Shown here piece by piece: positions 37,596 through 64,000 of a stretch of DNA of 64,000 bases (positions are counted from its first letter, which is position 1; every line of letters starts with the position of its first letter). The stretch is taken from positions 434,001-498,000 of the forward strand of contig NC_011886.1 of assembly GCF_000022025.1 (NCBI RefSeq), given 5' to 3'. The notes under the pieces are model-generated. The model made no database searches. It was given only the letters and a program-made list of their open reading frames with translations, and had not been told where the DNA came from. The DNA is from Pseudarthrobacter chlorophenolicus A6 (GTDB taxonomy: Bacteria > Actinomycetota > Actinomycetes > Actinomycetales > Micrococcaceae). Both the position numbers and the translations under genes were made by a program.

Positions 37596-37628
37596 CAAGA
37601 TTCGATCCGCTAGATAGGCTCAGCCTAT
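37596..37628 (-). promoter_or_regulatory. LysR operator in front of tartrate dehydrogenase
   Basis: ATAGGCTCAGCCTAT (37614-37628) is a perfect inverted repeat around one base and fits T-N11-A and ATA-N9-TAT. Read on the minus strand, GGTCTT follows at nearly the same distance (GTCTT after 18 bases) as in the Nac-like promoters at the right end of the window. It lies about 125 bases before the dehydrogenase ATG. Confidence 0.72.
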
Positions 37629-54303: not shown

Positions 54304-55665
54304 TCAACGGGTTTGGGCGGTTCGATCAGACTCGTTCAGGCGGCTGACGCGCCCCACAACTTCTGCCGTGTACGCCTGCGACGAGCTCATGCTGCCGCGG
54401 AACCAGAGGACGGCGTGGACGGACGGATCTCCTGGCACCACGATGGGGCGGAGGTTGTCCATGCCGGAGTTTTCCGTCACCGCGGTCCAGCTCCAGCTGG
54501 CACCGCCGTCGGCCGTCCGTCCCCGGTAGATCTCGTAATGGTCCGTGGCCTCACCGGTGCCGGGGTGGACCGGCGCGGAGATGTAGACCTGGTCCAGGTT
54601 GTTGGGATCCACGGCACCCAGCCCGGTGTAGTCCTGCTCGTGGGGGAGCAGGCCCGGGCCGGCCACAGCCAGCGGATGCAGGGCCCAGTCCGTTCCGTCG
54701 AAGCGCGCGTACAGCAGCCGGTGGTCGTCGACGTCGAGCCGTTGCTCCCGCTGGAGGGGCCCGTTGACGTCGTTGGCCCGGCAGCTGATGATGGCCGCCA
54801 GCTGGTTGCCCTGACCGCGCAGGTCTGCGGTCCAGGCGTGGGTGAGGATGTCGCCGTCGATCTCGGTCCCGGCCCGGAAGACGGTGGTGAGGGTGTCCTG
54901 GTTGATGCCCGTGGACCCCAGGAGCGGCTTGCTCACCACCTGGCCCTCGGCATCGTGCAGCGCATCGCCGCGGATGAAGCCGTGGTAGATGCTGTTGTTG
55001 AAGTCGCGGGGGTGGTGGTCCGTGGTGATCAGGTCGATCCGGTCCACACCATTGCCCCAGTAACGGGTGTAGCCGTTGACGTAGCCCACTTTGGGGCGGG
55101 TGAAGAGCTTGCCGCCGTAGCTCCAGGTGGTCCCGTCGTCCCCGGACACCAGCATGGTGGGATCGTCATTGATGGCGCGGACAAAGTTGTAGACGCGGGA
55201 TTCGGCCTCCAGCCAGTGCAGGTTGGAATAGGTGGCGCCGCGGCCGCCGGCCAGCTCGGTCCAGTCGAAGACCTGCTCGGGCTCCCACTCGGAGGCGTCA
55301 TGCGGCCGGACGGAGACGCGCCAGCGGGAGTAGTTGTCCGTCTTGTGCCTGGCGTACATGGCCACGTACCTGCCATCCGGCCGGATCAGCAGCGCCGGGG
55401 CGTTGTGGTCGTCGGATTCCAGCCGTTCATGCAGCACGTGGACCTGGCTTTGCCCCGTGGCTAAGTCAAGGACTGCCACCTCGATGTTGCCGCCCCGTTC
55501 AGCACCGCCAAGCCCCTCCGGTGCGGCGACGGAACCCACCAGCAGAGTGTTGTTGGCCGGATCGATGAGGGCGCGTTCGTCTTGAAACCAGCACCATGCC
55601 CCGTTGTCATTGATGCGCACTGTGAAAGCCGTTCTGTGTGGTTGGAGAAGGGTCGCGTGCTTCAT
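54304..55665 (-). CDS. BNR repeat-containing protein (BNR_4 family)
   Basis: 453-residue predicted beta-propeller of the BNR_4 family, seen in polysaccharide lyases/hydrolases acting on rhamnose-rich or uronic glycans. NDNGAWCWFQDERALIDP at the N-terminus is characteristic; repeats such as GDDGTTWSYGGKLF, YARFDGTDWALHPL and TADGGASWSW are the Asp-box-like blades. No signal peptide, so intracellular. It is first in a minus-strand run with the isomerase and acyltransferase fusion. A TTCAACCA element (55664-55672) overlaps the start region. Lyase versus hydrolase activity cannot be decided from sequence alone. Confidence 0.83.
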   Translation of the reverse strand: MKHATLLQPHRTAFTVRINDNGAWCWFQDERALIDPANNTLLVGSVAAPEGLGGAERGGNIEVAVLDLATGQSQVHVLHERLESDDHNAPALLIRPDGRYVAMYARHKTDNYSRWRVSVRPHDASEWEPEQVFDWTELAGGRGATYSNLHWLEAESRVYNFVRAINDDPTMLVSGDDGTTWSYGGKLFTRPKVGYVNGYTRYWGNGVDRIDLITTDHHPRDFNNSIYHGFIRGDALHDAEGQVVSKPLLGSTGINQDTLTTVFRAGTEIDGDILTHAWTADLRGQGNQLAAIISCRANDVNGPLQREQRLDVDDHRLLYARFDGTDWALHPLAVAGPGLLPHEQDYTGLGAVDPNNLDQVYISAPVHPGTGEATDHYEIYRGRTADGGASWSWTAVTENSGMDNLRPIVVPGDPSVHAVLWFRGSMSSSQAYTAEVVGRVSRLNESDRTAQTR

Positions 55666-55676
55666 TCAACCAGTGG
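55664..55676. promoter_or_regulatory. Weak operator-like element at the BNR gene start
   Basis: ATTCAACCAGTGG resembles the TT(C)CAACCA(T)TG core of the elements at 26969 and 54270. It overlaps the start codon region, where a repressor could block transcription. The match is short and could be chance. Confidence 0.3.
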
Positions 55677-55761
55677 CAACGAGCTTTGGAAAGGGCTTTC
55701 CGTTAGTAGCGGCCCAACGGGGCCGGGCGGAAGCGGCCATCCGCCGCCTCCGCAGGACCAC

Positions 55762-56061
55762 TCAGGACTCGCATTCCCTGCAGTACTTCTTCCCGTCCTT
55801 TTCCCGTGCCAGCTGGCTGCGGTGGTGGACCAGGAAACAGGACATGCAGGTGAATTCATCCGCCTGCACCGGGACAACCTGGACCTGCAGTTCCTCGTGG
55901 GACAGGTCAGCCCCGGGGAGCTCGAAGCTGTCCGCAAGGTCCGTCTCGTCCACATCGGGAGCAGCTTCCCGGCGTCCGGGCTTTTCGGCCTTCAGCTCCT
56001 CGATGGCAACGTTCGGCTCGTCTTCCGGCGTCACCCGTGGAGCGTCGTAGTCAACTGCCAT
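55762..56061 (-). CDS. DUF4193 domain protein
   Basis: 99-residue acidic protein conserved in actinobacteria. MAVDYDAPRV starts it; the C-terminal part has a CMSC...CREC zinc-ribbon-like pair of motifs (TCMSCFLVHHRSQLA and KKYCRECES). AGGAG lies upstream of the ATG at 56061. Its promoter side contains four degenerate 14-base repeats. Function unknown; the paired Cys motifs suggest metal binding and perhaps an RNA-polymerase or translation-related role as for other small zinc-ribbon proteins. Confidence 0.88.
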   Translation of the reverse strand: MAVDYDAPRVTPEDEPNVAIEELKAEKPGRREAAPDVDETDLADSFELPGADLSHEELQVQVVPVQADEFTCMSCFLVHHRSQLAREKDGKKYCRECES

Positions 56062-56110
56062 TAATACGTTCTCCTCTCTGGCTGTTGAAATCCGGAATCG
56101 CCTGCACAGG

Positions 56111-56166
56111 TTCTTCCGACGGGATTCTTCCCGACCGATTCTTCTGGACAGATACTTCCGAACACG
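56111..56166. repeat. Four degenerate 14-bp tandem repeats
   Basis: Units TTCTTCCGACGGGA, TTCTTCCCGACCGA, TTCTTCTGGACAGA and TACTTCCGAACACG lie head to tail, 50 bases before the DUF4193 start (GAAGAA on the coding strand). The period is exact although the bases diverge. Confidence 0.75.
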
Positions 56167-56271
56167 GCAACAACGCCGGGCCGGGGCCATATTATTCCCC
56201 TCACGCCCGGCAATTCCAGCACCGTTTCGGAGCGCTCAACAGGGTCCGAAGAACCTGCCGGATGCGTCCGG

Positions 56272-56880
56272 TCAGGCCTCCGGGCCGGTGTTCACGCCCC
56301 GGGTCATCTTGCGTATTTCGTCGTGCTTCAGGCCGCTGGCGGAGGCGAGCTGGTAATCGTCCAGCAGGCGCTGCTTCCGCGCTGCCGCCAGCACCTGGAC
56401 ACGGTGGCGTTCGACGGCGGCACGCGCCGCTTCAACGGCGGTCACCTCGTCCGCGAGTCTGGATATGCTGCGCAGCTGCTCCTCGGCGGGCAGGCCCGAG
56501 GGGTACAGCCCGTCCCTGCCCAGGCCGATGCCGCGGATCGTGGTGACCGGCACGCCGGCGGCCTGTGCGATGGTGGTGACCTTCACGCCGTCGCAGACGG
56601 CCTGCGCCACGCGTTCGTTGAGCTCGGAGAAAAGGGCCCGCAGCCGGCTGGACCGGAGGGAAATCATCTGCCGCTGCTGCTCCAGCAGGTCCCGGATCTC
56701 GCCAACCCGGGCGGCGGCAGGGTCGGGCCGGGCTGAACCCCGGTACCGGTAGGCACCCCTGGGGGAGCCGCCGGAGTGCGTGGCCGCGGCAGCGGCAGTT
56801 GGATGGAAGGCGTGGTGGGCGGGCACGGCCGGCTCCTTGCTGCCAAAAGGCTCCTGGGACGAAAGTTGGCGGCGGACCAT
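56272..56880 (-). CDS. Hypothetical protein with a putative HTH, about 202 aa
   Basis: I do not recognise the family. After an Ala/Pro-rich leader of about 55 residues comes a helical region (VGEIRDLLEQQRQMISLRSS), then VCDGVKVTTIAQAAGVPVTTIRGIG, which reads like a helix-turn-helix, and a C-terminal helical segment ending KHDEIRKMTRG. Such small HTH proteins are common in Arthrobacter. The ATG at 56880 has no clear ribosome site, so the true start may be inside the leader. Divergent from the aminotransferase, with 266 bases between the starts. Confidence 0.6.
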   Translation of the reverse strand: MVRRQLSSQEPFGSKEPAVPAHHAFHPTAAAAATHSGGSPRGAYRYRGSARPDPAAARVGEIRDLLEQQRQMISLRSSRLRALFSELNERVAQAVCDGVKVTTIAQAAGVPVTTIRGIGLGRDGLYPSGLPAEEQLRSISRLADEVTAVEAARAAVERHRVQVLAAARKQRLLDDYQLASASGLKHDEIRKMTRGVNTGPEA

Positions 56881-57035
56881 CCCGGACGGACGGCGGAAAG
56901 CCGGCCGCCGGCGTCGTCCGTTATGGCACGGAGCGCGGGAAGGATGTCCAGCCTGCCACGCTACGCGGACCCGCTGGCTGGCGGGGAATACCTATTTGGC
57001 GTGGTGCTATAGCGGATTCTTCTGGGTGGAGTGTC

Positions 57036-57105
57036 ATAAGGGCCGCTTATCCGTCCACGCACTTTAGGTCTTATCCAAGGGGGACCTTCGTTCCCTACGC
57101 TCGAA
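57036..57105 (+). promoter_or_regulatory. Nac-like LysR promoter of the aminotransferase operon
   Basis: ATAAGGGCCGCTTAT (57036-57050; ATA-N9-TAT) is followed after 17 bases by GTCTTATCC (57068-57076) and by a -10-like CTACGCT (57095-57101). The same order and spacing occur at 60885-60925 on the minus strand and twice upstream of pxpA. The ATG is at 57147. Confidence 0.75.
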
Positions 57106-57146
57106 TGAACCACCCTCATCCGCCCCGGACCCCCTTGGAAGAGACC

Positions 57147-58355
57147 ATGCCTGAATTCGTGCCAGCGTCACGCGTCACCCGAATCAAATCCTCACCCAGT
57201 GTGGCCGCAGCGGCCCGCGTCCGGGAGCTCAAGGCCGAGGGCCGGCGGATCCTGGACCTGACGGTGGGCGAACCGGATTTCGACACCCCCCAGCACATCA
57301 AGGACGCCGCCATCGCCGCCATTGGCCGCGGCGAAACCAAGTACACCTCCGTCACGGGAACACCCGAGCTCCAGCGGGCCATCCTGCAGACGCTCGAGCG
57401 TAAGACCGGGCAGCCGTACACGCCCGCCGAAATCACCATCGGAGGCGGCGGCAAGCAGGTCATCTTCACCGCGTTCATGGCCACCCTCGACGCCGGCGAT
57501 GAAGTAGTCATTCCCGCCCCCTACTGGGTGTCCTACCCGGACATGGTGCTGGCCAACGAGGGCACGCCCGTGATCGTCCCCTGTTCGGAGGAGACGGGCT
57601 TCAAGCTCACTCCGGAGGTGCTGGCAGCCGCCCTCACTGACCGCACCAAGTGGGTCATCCTCAACACGCCGTCCAACCCCACAGGGGCTGTCTACTCCCG
57701 TGACGAACTTGCCGGCCTGGCTGCGGTCCTCAGGGAGCACCCCTCCGTCCACGTCCTCACCGACGAGATCTACGATGAGATCCACTTCGGCGCCGAACCC
57801 ATCACCAGCCTTGTTGCCGTGGCGCCGGAACTCAAGGACCGCGTGCTGGTCACCAACGGCGTCTCCAAGGCGTACGCGATGACCGGCTGGCGGCTGGGCT
57901 ACGCCGGCGGTCCGGCGACCCTGGTGGCAGCCATTAACAAGCTCCAGTCCCAGATGTCCTCCTGCCCGTCGTCCGTCAGCCAGGCGGCCGCCGCCGCGGC
58001 ACTCACCGGCGACCAGTCCTTCGTCCGCGAAAGCGTGGCCGTGTACCGCGAACGCCGGGACGCGGCAGTCGCCGGGCTCAACGCCATCGAAGGCCTGCAC
58101 TGCGCGACGCCGGACGGCGCCTTCTACGCGTACGTCAACTGCGGCGGGGTCATTGGCAAGACGACGCCGGGCGGACAGCTGATTGCCAATGACGAGGACT
58201 TCACCCTCTATCTGCTCGACGCCGCCTCCGTGGCCGTCATCCAGGGATCGGCCTACGGCGTGGGCCCGTACTTCCGGATCTCCTACGCCACGGGATTGCC
58301 CGTGATCGAGGAATCCATCGCTGCCATCGAAAAATCGGTCCTGGCGCTCTCCTGA
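57147..58355 (+). CDS. Aspartate/aromatic aminotransferase, class I
   Basis: 402-residue PLP-dependent fold-type I aminotransferase. LDLTVGEPDFDTPQHI starts the substrate arm, NTPSNPTGAVYS is the conserved NPTG region, VLTDEIYDEIHF has the Asp/Tyr contacting PLP, and VTNGVSKAYAMTGWRLGY contains the Schiff-base Lys and phosphate Arg. FRISYA carries the alpha-carboxylate Arg. It is followed by an RraA-family aldolase gene 62 bases later and preceded by a Nac-like LysR promoter. With pxpABC in the same regulon, transfer of nitrogen from glutamate or a related amino acid is likely. Confidence 0.91.
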   Translation: MPEFVPASRVTRIKSSPSVAAAARVRELKAEGRRILDLTVGEPDFDTPQHIKDAAIAAIGRGETKYTSVTGTPELQRAILQTLERKTGQPYTPAEITIGGGGKQVIFTAFMATLDAGDEVVIPAPYWVSYPDMVLANEGTPVIVPCSEETGFKLTPEVLAAALTDRTKWVILNTPSNPTGAVYSRDELAGLAAVLREHPSVHVLTDEIYDEIHFGAEPITSLVAVAPELKDRVLVTNGVSKAYAMTGWRLGYAGGPATLVAAINKLQSQMSSCPSSVSQAAAAAALTGDQSFVRESVAVYRERRDAAVAGLNAIEGLHCATPDGAFYAYVNCGGVIGKTTPGGQLIANDEDFTLYLLDAASVAVIQGSAYGVGPYFRISYATGLPVIEESIAAIEKSVLALS

Positions 58356-58417
58356 GCCCGGGTTCCGCATCCGCCCCCTGAAACACCTCCCTTTCCAGCC
58401 TCTCCAGGAGCCATCCC

Positions 58418-59113
58418 GTGATCCACGTCAAGACCAAGTTCGACAAGCCCTCCGAGGACGCCATCGAACGCCTCTCCAAGTTCTCCTCCGCCACAGTCCA
58501 CGAAGCCCAGGGGCGCAAAGGTGCGCTGAGCTCCAAGATCAAGCCGATCGACCGCAGCATGTCCTTTTGTGGCCCGGCCGTCACCGTAGTGTGCGCGCCG
58601 CGGGACAACCTCATGCTGCAGGTGGCCATCCACTACGCCCAGAAGGGTGACGTTGTCCTGGTCGCCGCCGGTGAGTTCGAGGAAGCCGGAACGTTCGGCG
58701 ATGTGCTGGGCAACGCCATGAAGGCCAAGGGCGTGGCCGCCATGGTCACCGATTCCGGCGTCCGCGACACCAAGGACCTGATCGAGCTCGGGCTACCCGT
58801 ATTCTCCGGCAGCGTCTGCATCAAGGGGACTGTCAAGGAAACCATCGGCCCCATCAACCACCCCCTGGTGTTCGGCGATGAAATCGTCTACCCCGGGGAC
58901 GTCCTGCTGGGCGACGCCGACGGCGTGGTGGTGGTCCGCAAGGACGAGATCGAGGAAGTCATCAAGCTGTCCCAGGCACGCGTGGACGCCGAAGACGAAC
59001 TCATCCGCCTCTACAAGGCCGGCGGCACCACCATCGAGCTGTGCAAGCTGACGGATGTCCTGAAGGCCAAGGGCCTGCTGGTGGAGGACGCCGAGCTGGA
59101 GCCGGCTCTGTAG
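58418..59113 (+). CDS. RraA/HMG-CHA aldolase family protein
   Basis: 231-residue member of the RraA-like superfamily that includes 4-hydroxy-4-methyl-2-oxoglutarate and 4-carboxy-4-hydroxy-2-oxoadipate aldolases with oxaloacetate decarboxylase activity. FGDVLGNAMKAKGVAAMVTDSGVRD (about 95-119) has the conserved Gly, Arg and Asp residues of the active site, distinguishing a true aldolase from RraA (RNase E inhibitor). The GTG at 58418 has AGGAG upstream. Paired with an aminotransferase, it could cleave the 2-oxo acid formed from a branched glutamate-type amino acid. An IS30 element begins 13 bases after the stop. Confidence 0.86.
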   Translation: MIHVKTKFDKPSEDAIERLSKFSSATVHEAQGRKGALSSKIKPIDRSMSFCGPAVTVVCAPRDNLMLQVAIHYAQKGDVVLVAAGEFEEAGTFGDVLGNAMKAKGVAAMVTDSGVRDTKDLIELGLPVFSGSVCIKGTVKETIGPINHPLVFGDEIVYPGDVLLGDADGVVVVRKDEIEEVIKLSQARVDAEDELIRLYKAGGTTIELCKLTDVLKAKGLLVEDAELEPAL

Positions 59114-59126
59114 CTCCCGCCACCTC

Positions 59127-59150
59127 ATCGATTGCTGGGTAATTGCCGTT
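59127..59150 (+). repeat. IS30 left inverted repeat
   Basis: ATCGATTGCTGGGTAATTGCCGTT positions 59127-59150; begins 14 bases after the RraA-like stop codon. Pairs with 60444-60467 with two mismatches. Confidence 0.9.
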
Positions 59151-59184
59151 TTGACCTTGGAAAGTCAAGTGGTGGTTGCAACGG

Positions 59185-60387
59185 TTAGGCTGCTGCGGCG
59201 AGGAGGAGTTCGTTGAATTTCTGCTTGGGGGTTGCGAGGCCGAGGGTGGGGCGTGGCCGGTTGTTGAGGCTGTCCTGAACCCGTTTGAGGTCCTTTGCCG
59301 TGTGGACGGACAGGTCCGTGCTTTTTGCGAACCAGTGCCGCAGGAGTCTGTTGGTGTTCTCGTTGGTGCCTCGTTGCCAGGGCGAGTGGGGGTCGCAGAA
59401 ATAGACGTCCGCATCGATCGCTATCTGGATTTGGGCGTAGCGGGCCATCTCGATGCCGCGGTCGTAGGTCAGGGTCTTGCGCAGGTCCGCCGGCAGTTCC
59501 GCAAACGCGGTGATCATGGCTCTGGCGACCTCGTCTGCGCTGTGGCCGTTGGGCAGGTGCAGCAGCATGGTGTACCGGGTCGAGCGTTCAACACAGGTTC
59601 CGATCGCTGAGTTGCTGGCGACCGAGCCAAGGATCAAGTCGCATTCCCAGTGTCCGGGTACGGCCCGGTCCGCGGCTTCGGCCGGGCGTTCGGGGATTTT
59701 CAGCGCGTCCTTGAACGGGCTGTTGTTCCGGCCCCGGCCGCGTCCATCGCTGACCCGTTTGGCCCGGCCGGTGCTCAACTGCCGGTACAGGTCCTGGCGG
59801 ACATGTCCGCGGCCCTGGACGTAAATGGCCTGGTAGATCGTCTCGTGGCTGATCTGCATCCTCTCATCGTCCGGGAAAGCACGGGCCAGCACCAGCGAGC
59901 ACAGCTGCGGGGACCAGCCCTCGTCCATGGCGGACTCCACGAACCGGGCCAGCGGCTTATGGGCGAGTTTATGCTCCTTGGGCCGGCGGGCATTCTGCCC
60001 GGCCTTCAACTGCGCGACGTCGGACTGGTATGTGCCGTCCTCGCAGCAGTTCCGCCTGGCCTCGCGCCAGATCACCGATCGGTCCCGGCCCAGTTCCCTG
60101 CCGATCGCCGCGTAGGACCAGCCATCGCGCGGGCGGACCATGATCACCGCCCGTTCCGACAGGCTCAACCTGCCCGAGCCAGGGGCGCCGTCCGGAAACG
60201 GCGCCCCTACCGGTCCTTCACGTTTGCCTCTCGACATCTCCACAGGGCCCATCCTCCGGACCCAATGCCGCACCGTAGAGGACCACAGGCCCGACACGCG
60301 GCACGTCTCACTGATCGAGGCCCCCTGCCGCAAAAGCGCAAAGAACCCGTCCCTGACCGCATCCCCAAAAACGTACCCCGCCGGCAT
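59185..60387 (-). CDS. IS30-family transposase
   Basis: 400-residue DDE transposase. Two N-terminal helix-turn-helix regions (SISETCRVSGLWSSTVRHWV and DGWSYAAIGRELGRDRSVIW) bind the ends. The catalytic core shows GHWECDLILG (first Asp), LTYDRGIEM (second Asp) and GTNENTNRLLRHW (Glu), the IS30 DDE signature. The length and domain order are those of a complete transposase, and no frameshift is visible, so the element may still be mobile. It is transcribed opposite to the operon it interrupts. Confidence 0.95.
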   Translation of the reverse strand: MPAGYVFGDAVRDGFFALLRQGASISETCRVSGLWSSTVRHWVRRMGPVEMSRGKREGPVGAPFPDGAPGSGRLSLSERAVIMVRPRDGWSYAAIGRELGRDRSVIWREARRNCCEDGTYQSDVAQLKAGQNARRPKEHKLAHKPLARFVESAMDEGWSPQLCSLVLARAFPDDERMQISHETIYQAIYVQGRGHVRQDLYRQLSTGRAKRVSDGRGRGRNNSPFKDALKIPERPAEAADRAVPGHWECDLILGSVASNSAIGTCVERSTRYTMLLHLPNGHSADEVARAMITAFAELPADLRKTLTYDRGIEMARYAQIQIAIDADVYFCDPHSPWQRGTNENTNRLLRHWFAKSTDLSVHTAKDLKRVQDSLNNRPRPTLGLATPKQKFNELLLAAAA

Positions 60388-60443
60388 CGCAACACCCCTT
60401 CAACGGTTTCGTTGCAACGACCGTATGAATCCGCCCCTCTCAT

Positions 60444-60467
60444 AACGGCAGTTACTCAGCAATCGAT
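60444..60467 (-). repeat. IS30 right inverted repeat
   Basis: AACGGCAGTTACTCAGCAATCGAT at 60444-60467; reverse complement of the left end with two mismatches. Confidence 0.9.
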
Positions 60468-60480
60468 TCTTAAATGACGG

Positions 60481-60513
60481 GGCCCGGGGTTCCTTTCGGA
60501 ACTCCGGGCCTTC
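60481..60513. terminator. Hairpin terminator displaced by IS30
   Basis: GGCCCGG-GTTCC (60481-60493) pairs with GGAAC-CCGGGCC (60498-60510) around TTTC, then TTCC. Without the IS it would lie about 26 bases behind the RraA-like stop, so it is probably the original terminator of the aminotransferase operon; it also serves the convergent 80-residue gene. Confidence 0.75.
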
Positions 60514-60553
60514 CCCGTGCCGGACTGTATTTCAACCGATGATGTGGCGGGTG

Positions 60554-60796
60554 TCAGTTCATGCCGGGCAGGAGGTGCGACGGCGGACCTGCCTGGGAAT
60601 CGTCCAGGTACCACATGGTGGAACCGCGCTTGCCCGGCGGCATCATGCTTCCTTCAAAGACAAAGACGGGGTCCGACGCCGGTCCGTCCTCGGGCCGCCA
60701 GAATCCGTTCGTGGGGCAATGCGAACCGGTGCTCGCCTTGAGTTGGATCCTTCTGTCCGAGGATTTCCGGTACTGCAGGGTGGTGATCTTTTTCAT
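60554..60796 (-). CDS. Small conserved-looking unknown protein, 80 aa
   Basis: 80-residue basic protein beginning MKKITTLQYRKSSDRRIQLK, with a central TGSHCPTNGFWRPEDG and a C-terminal VFEGSMMPPGKRGSTMWYLD. It resembles a compact SH3-like or zinc-free ribbon fold but has a single Cys, and I cannot name a family. GGAG precedes the ATG at 60796. Its upstream region (60820-60925) carries the same LysR promoter layout as the aminotransferase and pxp operons, including a -10-like TAGGAT, so it is a dedicated member of that regulon and not a random open frame. Confidence 0.75.
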   Translation of the reverse strand: MKKITTLQYRKSSDRRIQLKASTGSHCPTNGFWRPEDGPASDPVFVFEGSMMPPGKRGSTMWYLDDSQAGPPSHLLPGMN

Positions 60797-60854
60797 TGCT
60801 GGGCTCCAAAGGAATTATTTGTGCCGGGAAAACGCCGTTGGCGAACCCTTTATG

Positions 60855-60925
60855 GCTTTTATCCTAGGACTTCCGTAATTCCGTGGATAAGACCAATGGA
60901 GCGTGACCTGATAAGGCCGCCTTAT
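60855..60925 (-). promoter_or_regulatory. Nac-like LysR promoter of the 80-aa gene
   Basis: Read on the minus strand: ATAAGGCGGCCTTAT (60925-60911, perfect palindrome around one base), 17 bases, GTCTTATCC (60893-60885), then -10-like TAGGAT (about 60866-60861). It aligns without gaps with 57036-57076, including the CACGC in the spacer. Confidence 0.75.
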
Positions 60926-60932
60926 GATGCGT

Positions 60933-61883
60933 TTAAGGAGTTTCCCGGGCTCCATCAGAGAGCGGCTGGTATTTGCTGCGCAGCATTTCCTGGAGCATTT
61001 CCTTCAGGACCAGCAGCACGGCCGAGCCTGCCTCGGACAGCGGCTCATGGTCCGGGGTGCACAGGGCGATCTTGCACTGCAGCGCCGGATCCACAATCCG
61101 GAGGACCCGGAAGTCTTCCTCGTGGAACAGGGCGTCCGCCGCGGACTTCGGCAGGATCGTGGCGCCCAGGTCGCTGCGCAGCAGCCGCGTGAGGGAAGGG
61201 ACGGATTCCACCTCGCCCACCAGGTGCAGTTTAAGCCCCTTGCCCTCGATGCCCGCCTGCACCACCTGGCGAAGGGTGTGGATCTGCTCAGGGAGGAAAA
61301 GCCCCAGTGTGGAGGCCTCTTCCAGGGTGATGGTGCCCGCGTCCGGCCCCACCGGAAGCTCACGGCCGGCGTTGACGATCAGGTAGAGGTCCTCAACGAT
61401 CAGCGTGGTGAACTGCACGCCCCGGATGGGCCCGGGCTCGTAAATCAGGGCCATGTCCAGCCGGCCGTTCTTGATGGCCTCGCTCAGCACGCCGCCGTAG
61501 ATCTCCGTCAGGTGCAGCACGATGTCCGGGTAGCGCCGGTTCACTTCGCTGATGATCCGCGGCGTCAGGCTGGACGCCATGCTGTAGGGGGCGATGGCGA
61601 TGGAGACCCGCCCCGACGGCGCAGCGCCTGACGCTGCAACATCCAGCCGTGCCTGCTCCACCAGCCTCAGGATGGTCTGCGAGTGGCGGTAGAGGGTGTG
61701 GCCCGCAGCGGTGGGCTCCACGCCCTGCTTGCTCCGGATCAGGAGCCTCTGCTTCAGCTCCGTTTCCAGGGAGGACACCTGCTGGCTCAGGGCCGGCTGG
61801 GCGACATGGAGGGCGGCGGCGGCCTTGGTAATGCTGCCGGAGTCGACGATCTTCACGAAGTACGCCAGCTTGCGGGTGTCCAT
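60933..61883 (-). CDS. Nac-like LysR family regulator
   Basis: 316-residue LTTR that closely follows enterobacterial Nac (nitrogen assimilation control) along its length: RKLAYFVKIVDSGSITKAAA, HVAQPALSQQVSSLE, LLIRSKQGVEPTAAGHTLY, SGRVSIAIAP and NGRLDMALIYEPGP. The effector domain runs from about 90 to 300. AGAGGAA precedes the ATG at 61883. Nac-type proteins recognise ATA-N9-TAT, and four such sites with a common downstream GTCTT element occur within 5.2 kb. I infer that it controls the aminotransferase operon, the 80-residue gene and pxpABC. Confidence 0.88.
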   Translation of the reverse strand: MDTRKLAYFVKIVDSGSITKAAAALHVAQPALSQQVSSLETELKQRLLIRSKQGVEPTAAGHTLYRHSQTILRLVEQARLDVAASGAAPSGRVSIAIAPYSMASSLTPRIISEVNRRYPDIVLHLTEIYGGVLSEAIKNGRLDMALIYEPGPIRGVQFTTLIVEDLYLIVNAGRELPVGPDAGTITLEEASTLGLFLPEQIHTLRQVVQAGIEGKGLKLHLVGEVESVPSLTRLLRSDLGATILPKSAADALFHEEDFRVLRIVDPALQCKIALCTPDHEPLSEAGSAVLLVLKEMLQEMLRSKYQPLSDGARETP

Positions 61884-61928
61884 AGCGTTCCTCTTTCCGG
61901 CGGGGACGGCACAGTACTGCGGGGGGTC

Positions 61929-61994
61929 ATACGTTGGCGCTATGGCGGGACAGGCATTACGTCTTTGTGTGATCCCGGCCTCAGGCATAGGTTA
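61929..61994 (+). promoter_or_regulatory. pxp upstream promoter P1 (LysR-type)
   Basis: ATACGTTGGCGCTAT (61929-61943), 17 bases, GTCTTTGTGTGA (61961-61972), -10-like TAGGTT (61988-61993). It points toward pxpA but its operator is also 46 bases from the LysR start codon, so it could repress the regulator gene. Confidence 0.65.
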
Positions 61995-62065
61995 ATTGCA
62001 GATGACTTCCCAATGACCAGAACATTCTATCCCCGCTCCGGTCATAGCGGCTTCCGATGACGGCA

Positions 62066-62080
62066 TATGCAATTTGCATA
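62066..62080. promoter_or_regulatory. Perfect 15-bp palindrome TATGCAATTTGCATA
   Basis: Seven-base arms around one central T, positioned between the two LysR-type promoters. Different from the ATA-N9-TAT sites and probably bound by another regulator, for example a GntR- or TetR-type protein encoded elsewhere. Confidence 0.6.
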
Positions 62081-62178
62081 AACCGCAGAAGTGTCATTTG
62101 GCCGCATTGTTTTTACATTTCCGAAACAAGCCATAAGTACATTTCCAGGTGTCGGCCAACGTGCCGCAAATGGGGGTC

Positions 62179-62244
62179 ATAACCGTCCCCTATCCCGTGA
62201 CACCGATTACGTCTTTGTGTGAGTCAAGTCTCCGGTGCCACACT
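62179..62244 (+). promoter_or_regulatory. pxp proximal promoter P2 (LysR-type)
   Basis: ATAACCGTCCCCTAT (62179-62193), 17 bases, GTCTTTGTGTGA (62211-62222), -10-like CACACT (62239-62244) about 40 bases before the pxpA ATG. The stretch 62171-62222 repeats 61921-61972 without gaps. Confidence 0.68.
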
Positions 62245-62283
62245 TTTTTACATCCCCGAACATGCAGCAGAGGAAGGCCCGCA

Positions 62284-63069
62284 ATGCCCACAGTTGATCT
62301 CGTAGCGGATCTTGGTGAAGGTTTTGGTGCCTACTCGATCGGTGACGACAAGGCCCTCCTGGATATCGTTTCCAGCGCCAACATCGCCTGCGGTTTCCAC
62401 GCCGGCGATCCGGACATCATGGACGCCACCGTCGCTGAATGCGTCCGCAAGGGAGTGGGCATCGGTGCCCACCCGAGCTTCCCGGACCTCCGCGGCTTCG
62501 GCCGCCGGGCCATGGACCTCACCGCGGACGAGGTCCGCAACGACGTCGTCTACCAGCTCGGCGCCCTCACGGCCTTTGCCGCCTACCACGGCGGATCCGT
62601 CTCCCACCTGGCACCGCACGGCCGCCTCGGCAACCTCGTAGCCACCCGCGCCGACTACGCGCAGGCCGTGGCGGACGCCGCAGTCCGCGTGGATCCCAAC
62701 CTGATAGTGCTCGCCCAGGACGGCGAGCTGGCCACCGCCGCAGCTGACCGTGGCCTGCAGGTTGCCATCGTGGGCATCGCCGACCGCGCCTACCAGGAGG
62801 ACGGCACCCTGGTTCCCCGCAGCCAGCCCGGCGCCGTCATCCACGACCCCTCAGCCATCGTCGAACGGACCGTCCGGATGGTCTGCGAAGGCCTGATCAC
62901 CACGGCCTCGGGTACGGACCTTGCCATTCAGGCGGACACCATCCTGCTGCACGGGGACAACCCCGGCGCCGTCGAACTCGCCCGCCTGATCCGCAGCGAA
63001 CTGATCGCCGCCGGCGTCACCGTGGCCCCGCTGGCGCAGGTGCTCGCCGCGAAGCAGAAGGTTTCCTGA
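62284..63069 (+). CDS. pxpA: 5-oxoprolinase subunit PxpA (LamB/YcsF family)
   Basis: 261-residue subunit that with PxpB and PxpC hydrolyses 5-oxoproline to glutamate with ATP. VDLVADLGEGFGAY, SSANIACGFHAGDPDIM, GIGAHPSFPDLRGFGRR and ILLHGDNPGAVELAR are the family motifs, with the conserved Asp/His residues of the (beta/alpha) barrel. AGGAAGG precedes the ATG at 62284; the longer open frame upstream runs through the regulatory region. Cytosolic. Followed by pxpB after two bases. Confidence 0.94.
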   Translation: MPTVDLVADLGEGFGAYSIGDDKALLDIVSSANIACGFHAGDPDIMDATVAECVRKGVGIGAHPSFPDLRGFGRRAMDLTADEVRNDVVYQLGALTAFAAYHGGSVSHLAPHGRLGNLVATRADYAQAVADAAVRVDPNLIVLAQDGELATAAADRGLQVAIVGIADRAYQEDGTLVPRSQPGAVIHDPSAIVERTVRMVCEGLITTASGTDLAIQADTILLHGDNPGAVELARLIRSELIAAGVTVAPLAQVLAAKQKVS

Positions 63070-63071
63070 CC

Positions 63072-63803
63072 ATGCCCGCCCCAACCACCGCCGCCCCCGC
63101 GGCACTGGAAATCCACGAGTCGGGTGACGCCGCCCTCCGGGTGGTGGCAACCTCCGGCAACCCCGAAGCCGACTGGGCCACCGTCCACTCCCTGGCAGGC
63201 TGGCTGGCAACGGCCGGCGTCGATGGCGTCCACGGCGCGGTGCCCACCTACGACTCCGTGCTGGTGGAATTCGACCCCTACCTCACCTCCGCGCGGCAGG
63301 TCCGGGCATTCGTGCTCCTCGCCATGCGCCAGCTGGACTTCACCGGCGCCACCGTCCGCGAGCCGCGCCGCTTCGACGTGCCGGTGGTGTACGGCGGCAG
63401 CTACGGACCGGACCTGGACCGCGTCGCTGAGCAGCAGGGCCTGGACGCCGCAGACGTCATCGCCCGGCACACCGAAAAGACCTACGTCATCCGCTGCCTG
63501 GGAGCACCCGCAGGCTCTCCCATGATGGACGGCCCGGACTTCCCGTTTCCCGTCCCCAGGCTGAAGGACCCGCGGCTCTCCGTCCCCGCCGGGGCGGTCT
63601 CCGTGGCCGGACGCCAGGCAGTGATCGCCCCGGCCACGGCCCCCGGCGGCTGGTGCGTCATCGGCCAGACGCCGCTGACCGTCCTGGATGCCACCCGCGA
63701 ACCTCTGGTGCCCTACGTTCCGGGCGACGAACTGCGCTTTTACGCCATCCCGGAAAAGGACTTCGAAGACCTCGCCGGCAAGTTCCTGGAGGCGCGGCCA
63801 TGA
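63072..63803 (+). CDS. pxpB: 5-oxoprolinase subunit PxpB (KipI family)
   Basis: 243-residue subunit, AHS1/KipI-like. IHESGDAALRVVATSG, AVPTYDSVLVEFDPY, HTEKTYVIRCLGAPAGSPMMDG and GGWCVIGQTPLTVLD follow the family pattern; the usual PGFPYLGG segment is AGSPMMDG here, a mild variation. It forms a complex with PxpC that phosphorylates the substrate. Two bases after pxpA, and overlapping pxpC by ATGA. Confidence 0.92.
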   Translation: MPAPTTAAPAALEIHESGDAALRVVATSGNPEADWATVHSLAGWLATAGVDGVHGAVPTYDSVLVEFDPYLTSARQVRAFVLLAMRQLDFTGATVREPRRFDVPVVYGGSYGPDLDRVAEQQGLDAADVIARHTEKTYVIRCLGAPAGSPMMDGPDFPFPVPRLKDPRLSVPAGAVSVAGRQAVIAPATAPGGWCVIGQTPLTVLDATREPLVPYVPGDELRFYAIPEKDFEDLAGKFLEARP

Positions 63804-64000
63804 CCGGCTCCCTCGTCATCCTTCAGCCCGGACACTCCGTGGTCACCGACCTCGGCCGCACCAAGGGCCCCGCCTTTGGCCTCCCGGTCAACGGCGCCTT
63901 GGACCAGTTCTCGGCCAAGGCCGCCAACATCCTGGCGGGCAACCCGGATAACGAACCTCTGCTGGAACTCACCGCACTCGACTTCCGGATGCGCGCCACC
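63800..64000 (+). CDS. pxpC: 5-oxoprolinase subunit PxpC (KipA family), 3' truncated
   Basis: Only the first 67 residues are in the window. ILQPGHSVVTDLGRTKGPAFGLPVNGALDQFSAKAAN and GNPDNEPLLELTALDF are the AHS2/KipA N-terminus. The ATG overlaps the pxpB stop (ATGA). The gene is cut by the window edge. Confidence 0.9.
   Translation, partial: MTGSLVILQPGHSVVTDLGRTKGPAFGLPVNGALDQFSAKAANILAGNPDNEPLLELTALDFRMRAT

Follow-up and report, generated by a model that had tools for sequence, protein, structure and literature searches.

NAC of Escherichia coli and Klebsiella is a LysR-type transcriptional regulator (LTTR) that is expressed from a sigma54/NtrC promoter, acts without a co-inducer and recognizes the dyad ATA-N9-TAT; among the literature matches listed, no paper gives this dyad for Nac. 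Here we describe a Nac-like LysR regulator of the actinobacterium Pseudarthrobacter chlorophenolicus A6, the four promoters with a bipartite site that lie around its gene, and the module of genes that they precede. The stretch of DNA analysed, hereafter the window, comprises 64,000 nucleotides (NC_011886.1, positions 434,001 to 498,000, forward strand).

Two further LTTR systems have comparable sites. According to the accessible part of its description, BhbR1 of Pigmentiphaga has a DNase-footprinted recognition binding site (RBS) ATA-N9-TAT with its first A at -70, followed after N17 by GGCTTT at -38 (PMC12016517). These are the same numbers as at the window sites, a likeness at the level of the DNA site; the difference is that BhbR1 controls 3-bromo-4-hydroxybenzoate catabolism. 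For BenM and CatM, the portion of PMC6628147 at hand gives the operator as ATAC-N7-GTAT, with sites 1 and 2 used on induction. The T-N11-A core is shared and the window dyad ATA-N9-TAT falls within that operator, whereas the targets are different and the protein similarity is weaker (E 4.6e-18).

On the metabolic side, Corynebacterium glutamicum uses pxpTABC for 5-oxoproline under the control of PxpR, a GntR repressor sensing 5-oxoproline, and the authors state in the available text that, to their knowledge, no earlier study had addressed how bacteria regulate 5-oxoproline metabolism (PMC13274462). Both systems combine actinobacterial pxpABC genes with a neighbouring regulator and a transporter. 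They differ in that PxpR is a GntR repressor, and the main text of that paper, in its accessible part, mentions neither LysR nor an aminotransferase. Among the literature matches listed, to which subscription papers mostly do not belong, no title or abstract joins a LysR regulator, an aminotransferase, an RraA aldolase and pxpABC.

A bipartite site confined to four promoters

An earlier note on this DNA had placed an identical layout, ATA-N9-TAT-N17-GTCTTW, at four promoters. All four exact matches are present in the window with the exact spacing (57036 +, 60925 -, 61929 + and 62179 +), and 100 shuffles of the window yielded none. The sites fall into two classes, A and B, and are listed below together with their conservation in the loci compared further on:

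57036 to 57073, + strand: operator-promoter 1, class A, upstream of the aminotransferase-rraA genes; the orthologous gene is preceded by a site in 62 of 63 loci
60888 to 60925, - strand: operator-promoter 2, class A, upstream of a gene for an 80-amino-acid protein (p80); exact in 54 of 63 loci
61929 to 61966, + strand: operator-promoter 3, class B, divergent from lysR; corresponds to the promoter of an ABC importer operon in relatives
62179 to 62216, + strand: operator-promoter 4, class B, upstream of pxpABC; in 64 of 66 loci a site precedes pxpA

A scan of the whole 4.98-Mb genome recovered only the same four sites, and the reversed pattern gave zero. The same four alone were found with longer, class-specific patterns at up to three mismatches, while a shorter pattern (ATA-N9-TAT, A at column 22 and GT at columns 33-34, counted from the first A) added one more match, its reversed control also giving one. 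The bipartite element is therefore specific and local, and the pattern does not occur at background frequency, a check that had been set beforehand. A chance origin of the sites was rejected on the shuffles and on the reversed controls of the genome, the genus and the proteobacterial loci. Two more ATA-N9-TAT dyads occur in the window at 37614 (ATAGGCTCAGCCTAT) and 38568 (ATAGCCTACGCCTAT), about 950 bp apart and without N17-GTCTT.

Anatomy of the site

Spacing was measured in window positions 55001-64000 and in 19 related loci (L035-L054 minus L046, which holds one chance-like site) by seeking GTCTTW up to 60 bases from TAT. The distance was 17 in 67/67 cases; the spacing is thus conserved in orthologous promoters, the other point on which a check had been set beforehand. 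The 58 unique sites of this sample are also constant outside the pattern itself, with C at column 0 and A at column 22 in 100% and T at column 30 in 91%. At the unfixed columns of the site the mean top frequency was 0.80 for aminotransferase promoters vs 0.41 in the upstream flank, and 0.68-0.73 vs 0.41-0.45 for the other promoter classes.

Class A comprises the aminotransferase and p80 promoters, with mostly CAC at columns 21-23, GTCTTA, often followed by TCCA, and TAnnnT at columns 60-65; in 31 unique class-A sites T60, A61 and T65 each reach 84%, and class B is weaker here. Class B comprises the lysR/ABC and pxpA promoters, with GAC or GAT at columns 21-23 and GTCTTTGTG. Its GAC-N9-GTC forms a second dyad that, like the first, spans 15 bp, the two centres being 20 bp apart, and we take it as a putative activation binding site (ABS). 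Outside class B only A22 and T34 of this second dyad are constant. The -10-like hexamers of the window sites are TACGCT at column 61, TAGGAT and TAGGTT at column 60 and, for site 62179, CACACT at column 61, so that the hexamer claimed in the earlier note at 59-60 bases from the first A is fair at three sites and poor at the fourth.

The regulator and the genes of the module

The product of the lysR gene matches Pfam HTH_1 (75.5 bits) and LysR_substrate (99.7 bits), both above cut-off, and the dyad at 61929 has the LTTR hallmark, T-N11-A in an interrupted dyad divergent from the regulator's own gene. Over 303 residues the protein is 42% identical to E. coli Nac, with 41 of the first 60 residues and the stretch AQPALSQQV identical. 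Its best NCBIfam model is NAC (PRK11233), the next model scoring 131; the NAC score of 305.2 lies just under the cut-off of 309, with E. coli Nac at 600.4 and three proteobacterial relatives passing at 328.2, 316.7 and 453.6. The description of the regulator as strikingly Nac-like in the earlier note is thus borne out. Its use of the motif as a mark of Nac is not: because BhbR1 and BenM/CatM share the dyad, ATA-N9-TAT is not diagnostic, and the protein scores under the NAC cut-off. In a tree of 27 proteins the two enterobacterial NACs stand between two groups of module-linked regulators, with the root unsure, since Cbl, on a very long branch, was the sole outgroup; NAC may be nested among these groups or sister to them. 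The best reading is that of a pathway-specific LTTR that is Nac-like in sequence.

The genes and other features around the sites are as follows:

57147 to 58355, + strand: class I aminotransferase (PRK06107 aspartate transaminase; NF004769, 711.2 bits vs a cut-off of 617)
58418 to 59113, + strand: RraA-type aldolase of the 4-carboxy-4-hydroxy-2-oxoadipate (CHA)/4-hydroxy-4-methyl-2-oxoglutarate (HMG) aldolase, oxaloacetate decarboxylase family (NF006731, 220.2 vs 179)
59132 to 60463, - strand: IS30-family insertion of about 1.33 kb (transposase 59185-60387, NF033563; TCGA at both ends)
60554 to 60796, - strand: p80 (17 invariant residues among 25 aligned sequences)
60933 to 61883, - strand: Nac-like LysR regulator (61883, not 61988, is taken as the start; the helix-turn-helix then begins at residue 4)
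62284 to 63069, + strand: pxpA (LamB/YcsF; Pfam and NCBIfam models)
63072 to 63803, + strand: pxpB (CT_C_D)
63800 to 64000, + strand: pxpC (continues past the window end; an MHS transporter and a short-chain dehydrogenase/reductase (SDR) follow in the genome)

The solved chains closest to the aminotransferase are aspartate aminotransferases A and B. The RraA-type protein scores 193.9 with TIGR02798 (cut-off 304.5), and its GVRDT aligns with R123-D124 of 3NOJ, so that the Arg-Asp pair is kept. 3NOJ is the Pseudomonas putida HMG/CHA aldolase, in which the Arg-Asp pair 123-124 has a role. PxpA passes its subfamily model (332.6 vs 226), and the curated PxpB (108.2 vs 145.55) and PxpC (132.6 vs 500) models fall short of their cut-offs. 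The genome has two more pxpA paralogues (G000:C3:202689 and 586151; L066 and L067), one of them in a set of pxpA, an MFS transporter, a fused pxpBC and a biotin carboxylase gene beside a GntR/FCD regulator gene. That set is likewise under the PxpB and PxpC cut-offs (119.9 and 164.7), so these cut-offs do not discriminate between the two sets. The IS30 element sits between rraA and the p80 gene, where a relative (L084) has a short intergenic region; it is not part of the regulon and has left it intact. For p80, no Pfam or NCBIfam family was found, and its AlphaFold model (mean predicted local distance difference test score 66.9) gave no PDB match at E 0.001. An Imm72 hit at E 0.018, obtained with one of the 25 aligned sequences, was not taken up as an assignment. 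The 202-amino-acid protein at 56272-56880, which has no match in Pfam or NCBIfam, is encoded divergently from the aminotransferase promoter; many relatives keep this arrangement, often with low sequence identity.

Sites follow the regulator across the Micrococcaceae

Among 150 genomes of the genus, including our own, the LysR orthologue (called at E ≤ 1e-80) is present in 73 and the exact site in 75. Every genome with the orthologue (73/73) holds no fewer than two exact sites; of the 77 without it, 75 hold none and two (G014 and G065) hold one each. Regulator and sites thus agree in 148/150 genomes. The reversed pattern matches in 8/150. In the family sample (197 genomes, 12 of them of the genus; E ≤ 1e-60) the regulator occurs in 11 genomes, all with sites, and in a phylum sample of 396 genomes only our own passes E 1e-70. 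A scan of the genome collection gave 68 loci, nearly all from Micrococcaceae together with a metagenome-assembled genome (MAG) of Propionicimonas. In the latter the module is rearranged, with lysR, the aminotransferase gene and rraA in line, and the class-A site before the aminotransferase gene and the class-B site before the ABC operon are kept.

With the window, these make a set of 69 loci, some of which end at contig ends; 68 have at least one site. The usual order is [SDR, MHS transporter, pxpC, pxpB, pxpA]-site-[ABC importer operon]-site-lysR-site-p80-[rraA, aminotransferase]-site-next gene. The set holds 221 exact sites, and all but two lie within 450 bp before the aminotransferase, p80, ABC substrate-binding-protein (abcSBP) or pxpA gene, or divergent from lysR. 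One exception (L090) stands before a further MFS gene; the other (L118) is 3' of lysR, where the p80 promoter sits in relatives, near a contig end. Per-gene counts, made for genes with room upstream and a site no more than 450 bp before them, are given above for the aminotransferase, p80 and pxpA genes. In L126 and L151, the two loci whose pxpA has no site, the ABC operon immediately precedes that gene. The nine p80 genes without an exact site have, at the corresponding position, a sequence that agrees with the 13-base consensus in 12-13 bases. For abcSBP the count is 19/20, the site in L104 being slightly further off.

No ABC gene of this kind is present in 49/69 loci, the window included, and two class-B sites stand there in tandem. 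The importer operon of relatives is missing here and its promoter, site 61929, remains. That site had been assigned to pxpA; by origin it is better read as the lysR-divergent promoter of the ABC operon.

A further detached site occurs in G071 (C7:947284). The detached sites that were examined precede a further MFS or MHS transporter gene in L069, L171, L172, L173 and L090 (the last by like sequence only), a p80 copy in L172, a complete ABC operon in L175 and an aminotransferase gene with rraA in L176. In L171, L172, L175 and L176 p80-like copies adjoin the detached members, namely a transporter gene, the ABC operon or aminotransferase-rraA, which suggests that p80 moves together with genes of the regulon. 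Genes of the idn/gnt type or for 2-hydroxyacid dehydrogenases occur in 25/69 loci. In one genome a class-A site (L174:4594; G121:C1:764593) is followed after about 135 bp by a gene for a gluconokinase-like protein (54% to gntK of the window's genome), which links idn/gnt genes to the regulon.

Two observations stand apart. L126, from a record named Sporosarcina beigongshangi, is a Micrococcaceae-type locus with a LysR 79% identical to ours, and the name or the assembly is probably wrong. Other LysR genes (27-30% identical) from different genera of the family also have the bipartite pattern directly upstream, on the same strand (L079:6036, L082:6392 and L083:6658), suggesting that this layout may extend to further LTTRs.

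Module and sites on proteobacterial plasmids

A tblastn search of the plasmid collection at E 1e-50 found 230 records with a relative of the regulator, of which 16 loci were fetched for variety. The relatives on plasmids of Alpha- and Betaproteobacteria are 40-46% identical. Of the 16 loci, 12 carry pxpA and an SDR gene; among these, the stretch also includes an aminotransferase gene in 11 and an RraA-like gene in 11. Three others (L159, L163 and L165) carry hyuA/hyuB, an SDR gene and, by Pfam, an HpcH/HpaI-type aldolase gene instead, two of them with an aspartate transaminase, and L166 is a Citrobacter nac beside cbl with none of the module genes. The regulator product is named NAC in nine of the ten annotated stretches (in L168 the gene is nac and the product LysR family), the remaining six being without a gene table.

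The 15 loci other than L166 (313,506 bases) contain 13 exact and seven one-mismatch sites, against 0 and 0 for the reversed pattern. Columns 21-22 read CA in 19 of these 20 sites, the exception lying inside the lysR frame. Over the full length of eight of these plasmid records (8.0 Mb) there were 14 exact matches, 13 of them at the module, and the control gave 0. Neither of the two enterobacterial nac loci examined (L152, L166) has a bipartite site within one mismatch.

Proposed mechanism and pathway

Given the site, its spacing, its co-occurrence with lysR, the synteny and the conservation across phyla, we consider it highly probable that the surrounding module has a dedicated regulator of the activator type in the LysR encoded at 60933-61883, with a two-dimer operator and repression of its own gene. 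Every promoter would be occupied by two LysR dimers, the first on the recognition site ATA-N9-TAT, centred at about -64, and the second on an activation site that abuts the -35 region from upstream, with A22 and GTCTT (columns 33-37) as its fixed parts. In this putative tetramer geometry the dimer centres would be 20 bp, or two helical turns, apart; the positions relative to predicted transcription starts (RBS near -65, ABS near -35) derive from the -10-like hexamers only. With a presumed inducer, LysR would switch on uptake by the MHS symporter and, in many relatives, also by the ABC importer, together with the PxpABC ATP-dependent lactamase, the transaminase, the RraA-type aldolase, the SDR and p80. 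Operator-promoters 1, 2 and 4 would drive aminotransferase-rraA, the p80 gene and pxpABC, respectively, the last probably together with the downstream MHS transporter and SDR genes, and through the divergent site 61929 the regulator would probably repress its own gene. The compact LysR regulon proposed in the earlier note, linking aminotransferase and aldolase, the 80-amino-acid protein and pxpABC, is supported.

Several findings weigh against this reading. L126 has no site before the aminotransferase gene, and none was found in the 10.5-kb locus of the second LysR copy of A. terricola (L148); the exact site is also absent from a Sinomonas paralogue cluster (L072, G328:C2; LysR2 47%, pxpABC, RraA 63%). 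The two genus genomes without LysR still have a site, as do 15 family genomes without the regulator, about the reversed-control level of 14 genomes. The sequences are related, so the loci are not independent counts. Five of the 15 proteobacterial loci (L159, L161, L162, L167 and L168) have no site at up to one mismatch; four show two-mismatch candidates near lysR, for which there is no control, and L168 shows none. Of the second dyad only the A22/T34 pair is convincing, with column 21 breaking the dyad in class A and column 23 in some proteobacterial sites; BhbR1 reads TAA at columns 21-23 in the portion of PMC12016517 consulted; and site 62179 has its poor -10.

The module is apparently a dedicated and undescribed nutrient-degradation pathway, for which a hydroxylated pyroglutamate or glutamate fits as the substrate. 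Lactam opening, transamination and retro-aldol cleavage are proposed mainly because PxpABC is exchanged for HyuAB and RraA for HpcH/HpaI together, in three loci, with the chemistry of the steps kept. We tentatively propose that Nac-type LysRs outside enterobacteria may be switches of a catabolic pathway shared across phyla under one operator code. PxpABC, or HyuAB in some rhizobia, would open a hydroxylated gamma-lactam, for example 4-hydroxy(-4-methyl)pyroglutamate; an aspartate-type transaminase would yield a 4-hydroxy-2-oxo acid; and a pyruvate aldolase (RraA, or HpcH/HpaI with HyuAB) would split this into pyruvate and another oxo acid. On this view the NAC of enterobacteria would be a relative that left the pathway and lost the activation half-site. 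An aldonic lactam was also considered as substrate, as idn/gnt genes often follow; it would explain gntK but not the aldolase, and was rejected.

Alternative explanations

The module might simply degrade 5-oxoproline, PxpABC yielding glutamate, the transaminase 2-oxoglutarate and aspartate, and RraA decarboxylating oxaloacetate. We regard this as possible but on the whole unlikely. The PxpA score, the oxaloacetate decarboxylase in the RraA family name and the use of pxpTABC for 5-oxoproline in C. glutamicum, as described in the accessible part of PMC13274462, are in keeping with it. However, the genome has the other pxpA-MFS-pxpBC set beside a GntR/FCD gene, in a C. glutamicum-like layout, and plain 5-oxoproline use may lie there; the aldolase and SDR would not be needed for it; and the three plasmid loci with HyuA/HyuB and an HpcH/HpaI aldolase leave the set of steps unchanged.

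That the regulator is a true NAC, the global regulator of nitrogen limitation with pxpABC and the aminotransferase as nitrogen-scavenging targets, seems very improbable to us. Its identity to E. coli Nac, its best NCBIfam model and the release of nitrogen by the module genes speak for it, and membership was nevertheless not accepted: the score is below the cut-off, the bipartite site, counted in its two-part form, is only local in the genome, and the two enterobacterial nac loci examined have no such site. We give still less credence to a repeated element bound by another factor, or a recent promoter duplication without function. The class-B sites 61929 and 62179 share some sequence outside the pattern as well, but sites are retained all the way from Pseudarthrobacter to Rhizobium and Variovorax with the N9 and N17 letters diverged, and they track the lysR gene, by which this explanation is largely refuted.

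Implications

The dedicated LysR regulon that we favour comes with a simple sequence rule, C-ATA-N9-TAT-N5-[CG]A-N10-GTCTT with a -10 near column 60, which can serve to locate the module and its operons in Actinomycetota and Pseudomonadota. The analysis suggests that many genes annotated as 'NAC' are pathway regulators, and it makes an unnamed pathway of soil and root bacteria testable. The system also allows one to ask by what route a global nitrogen regulator emerged out of a local one or alongside it.

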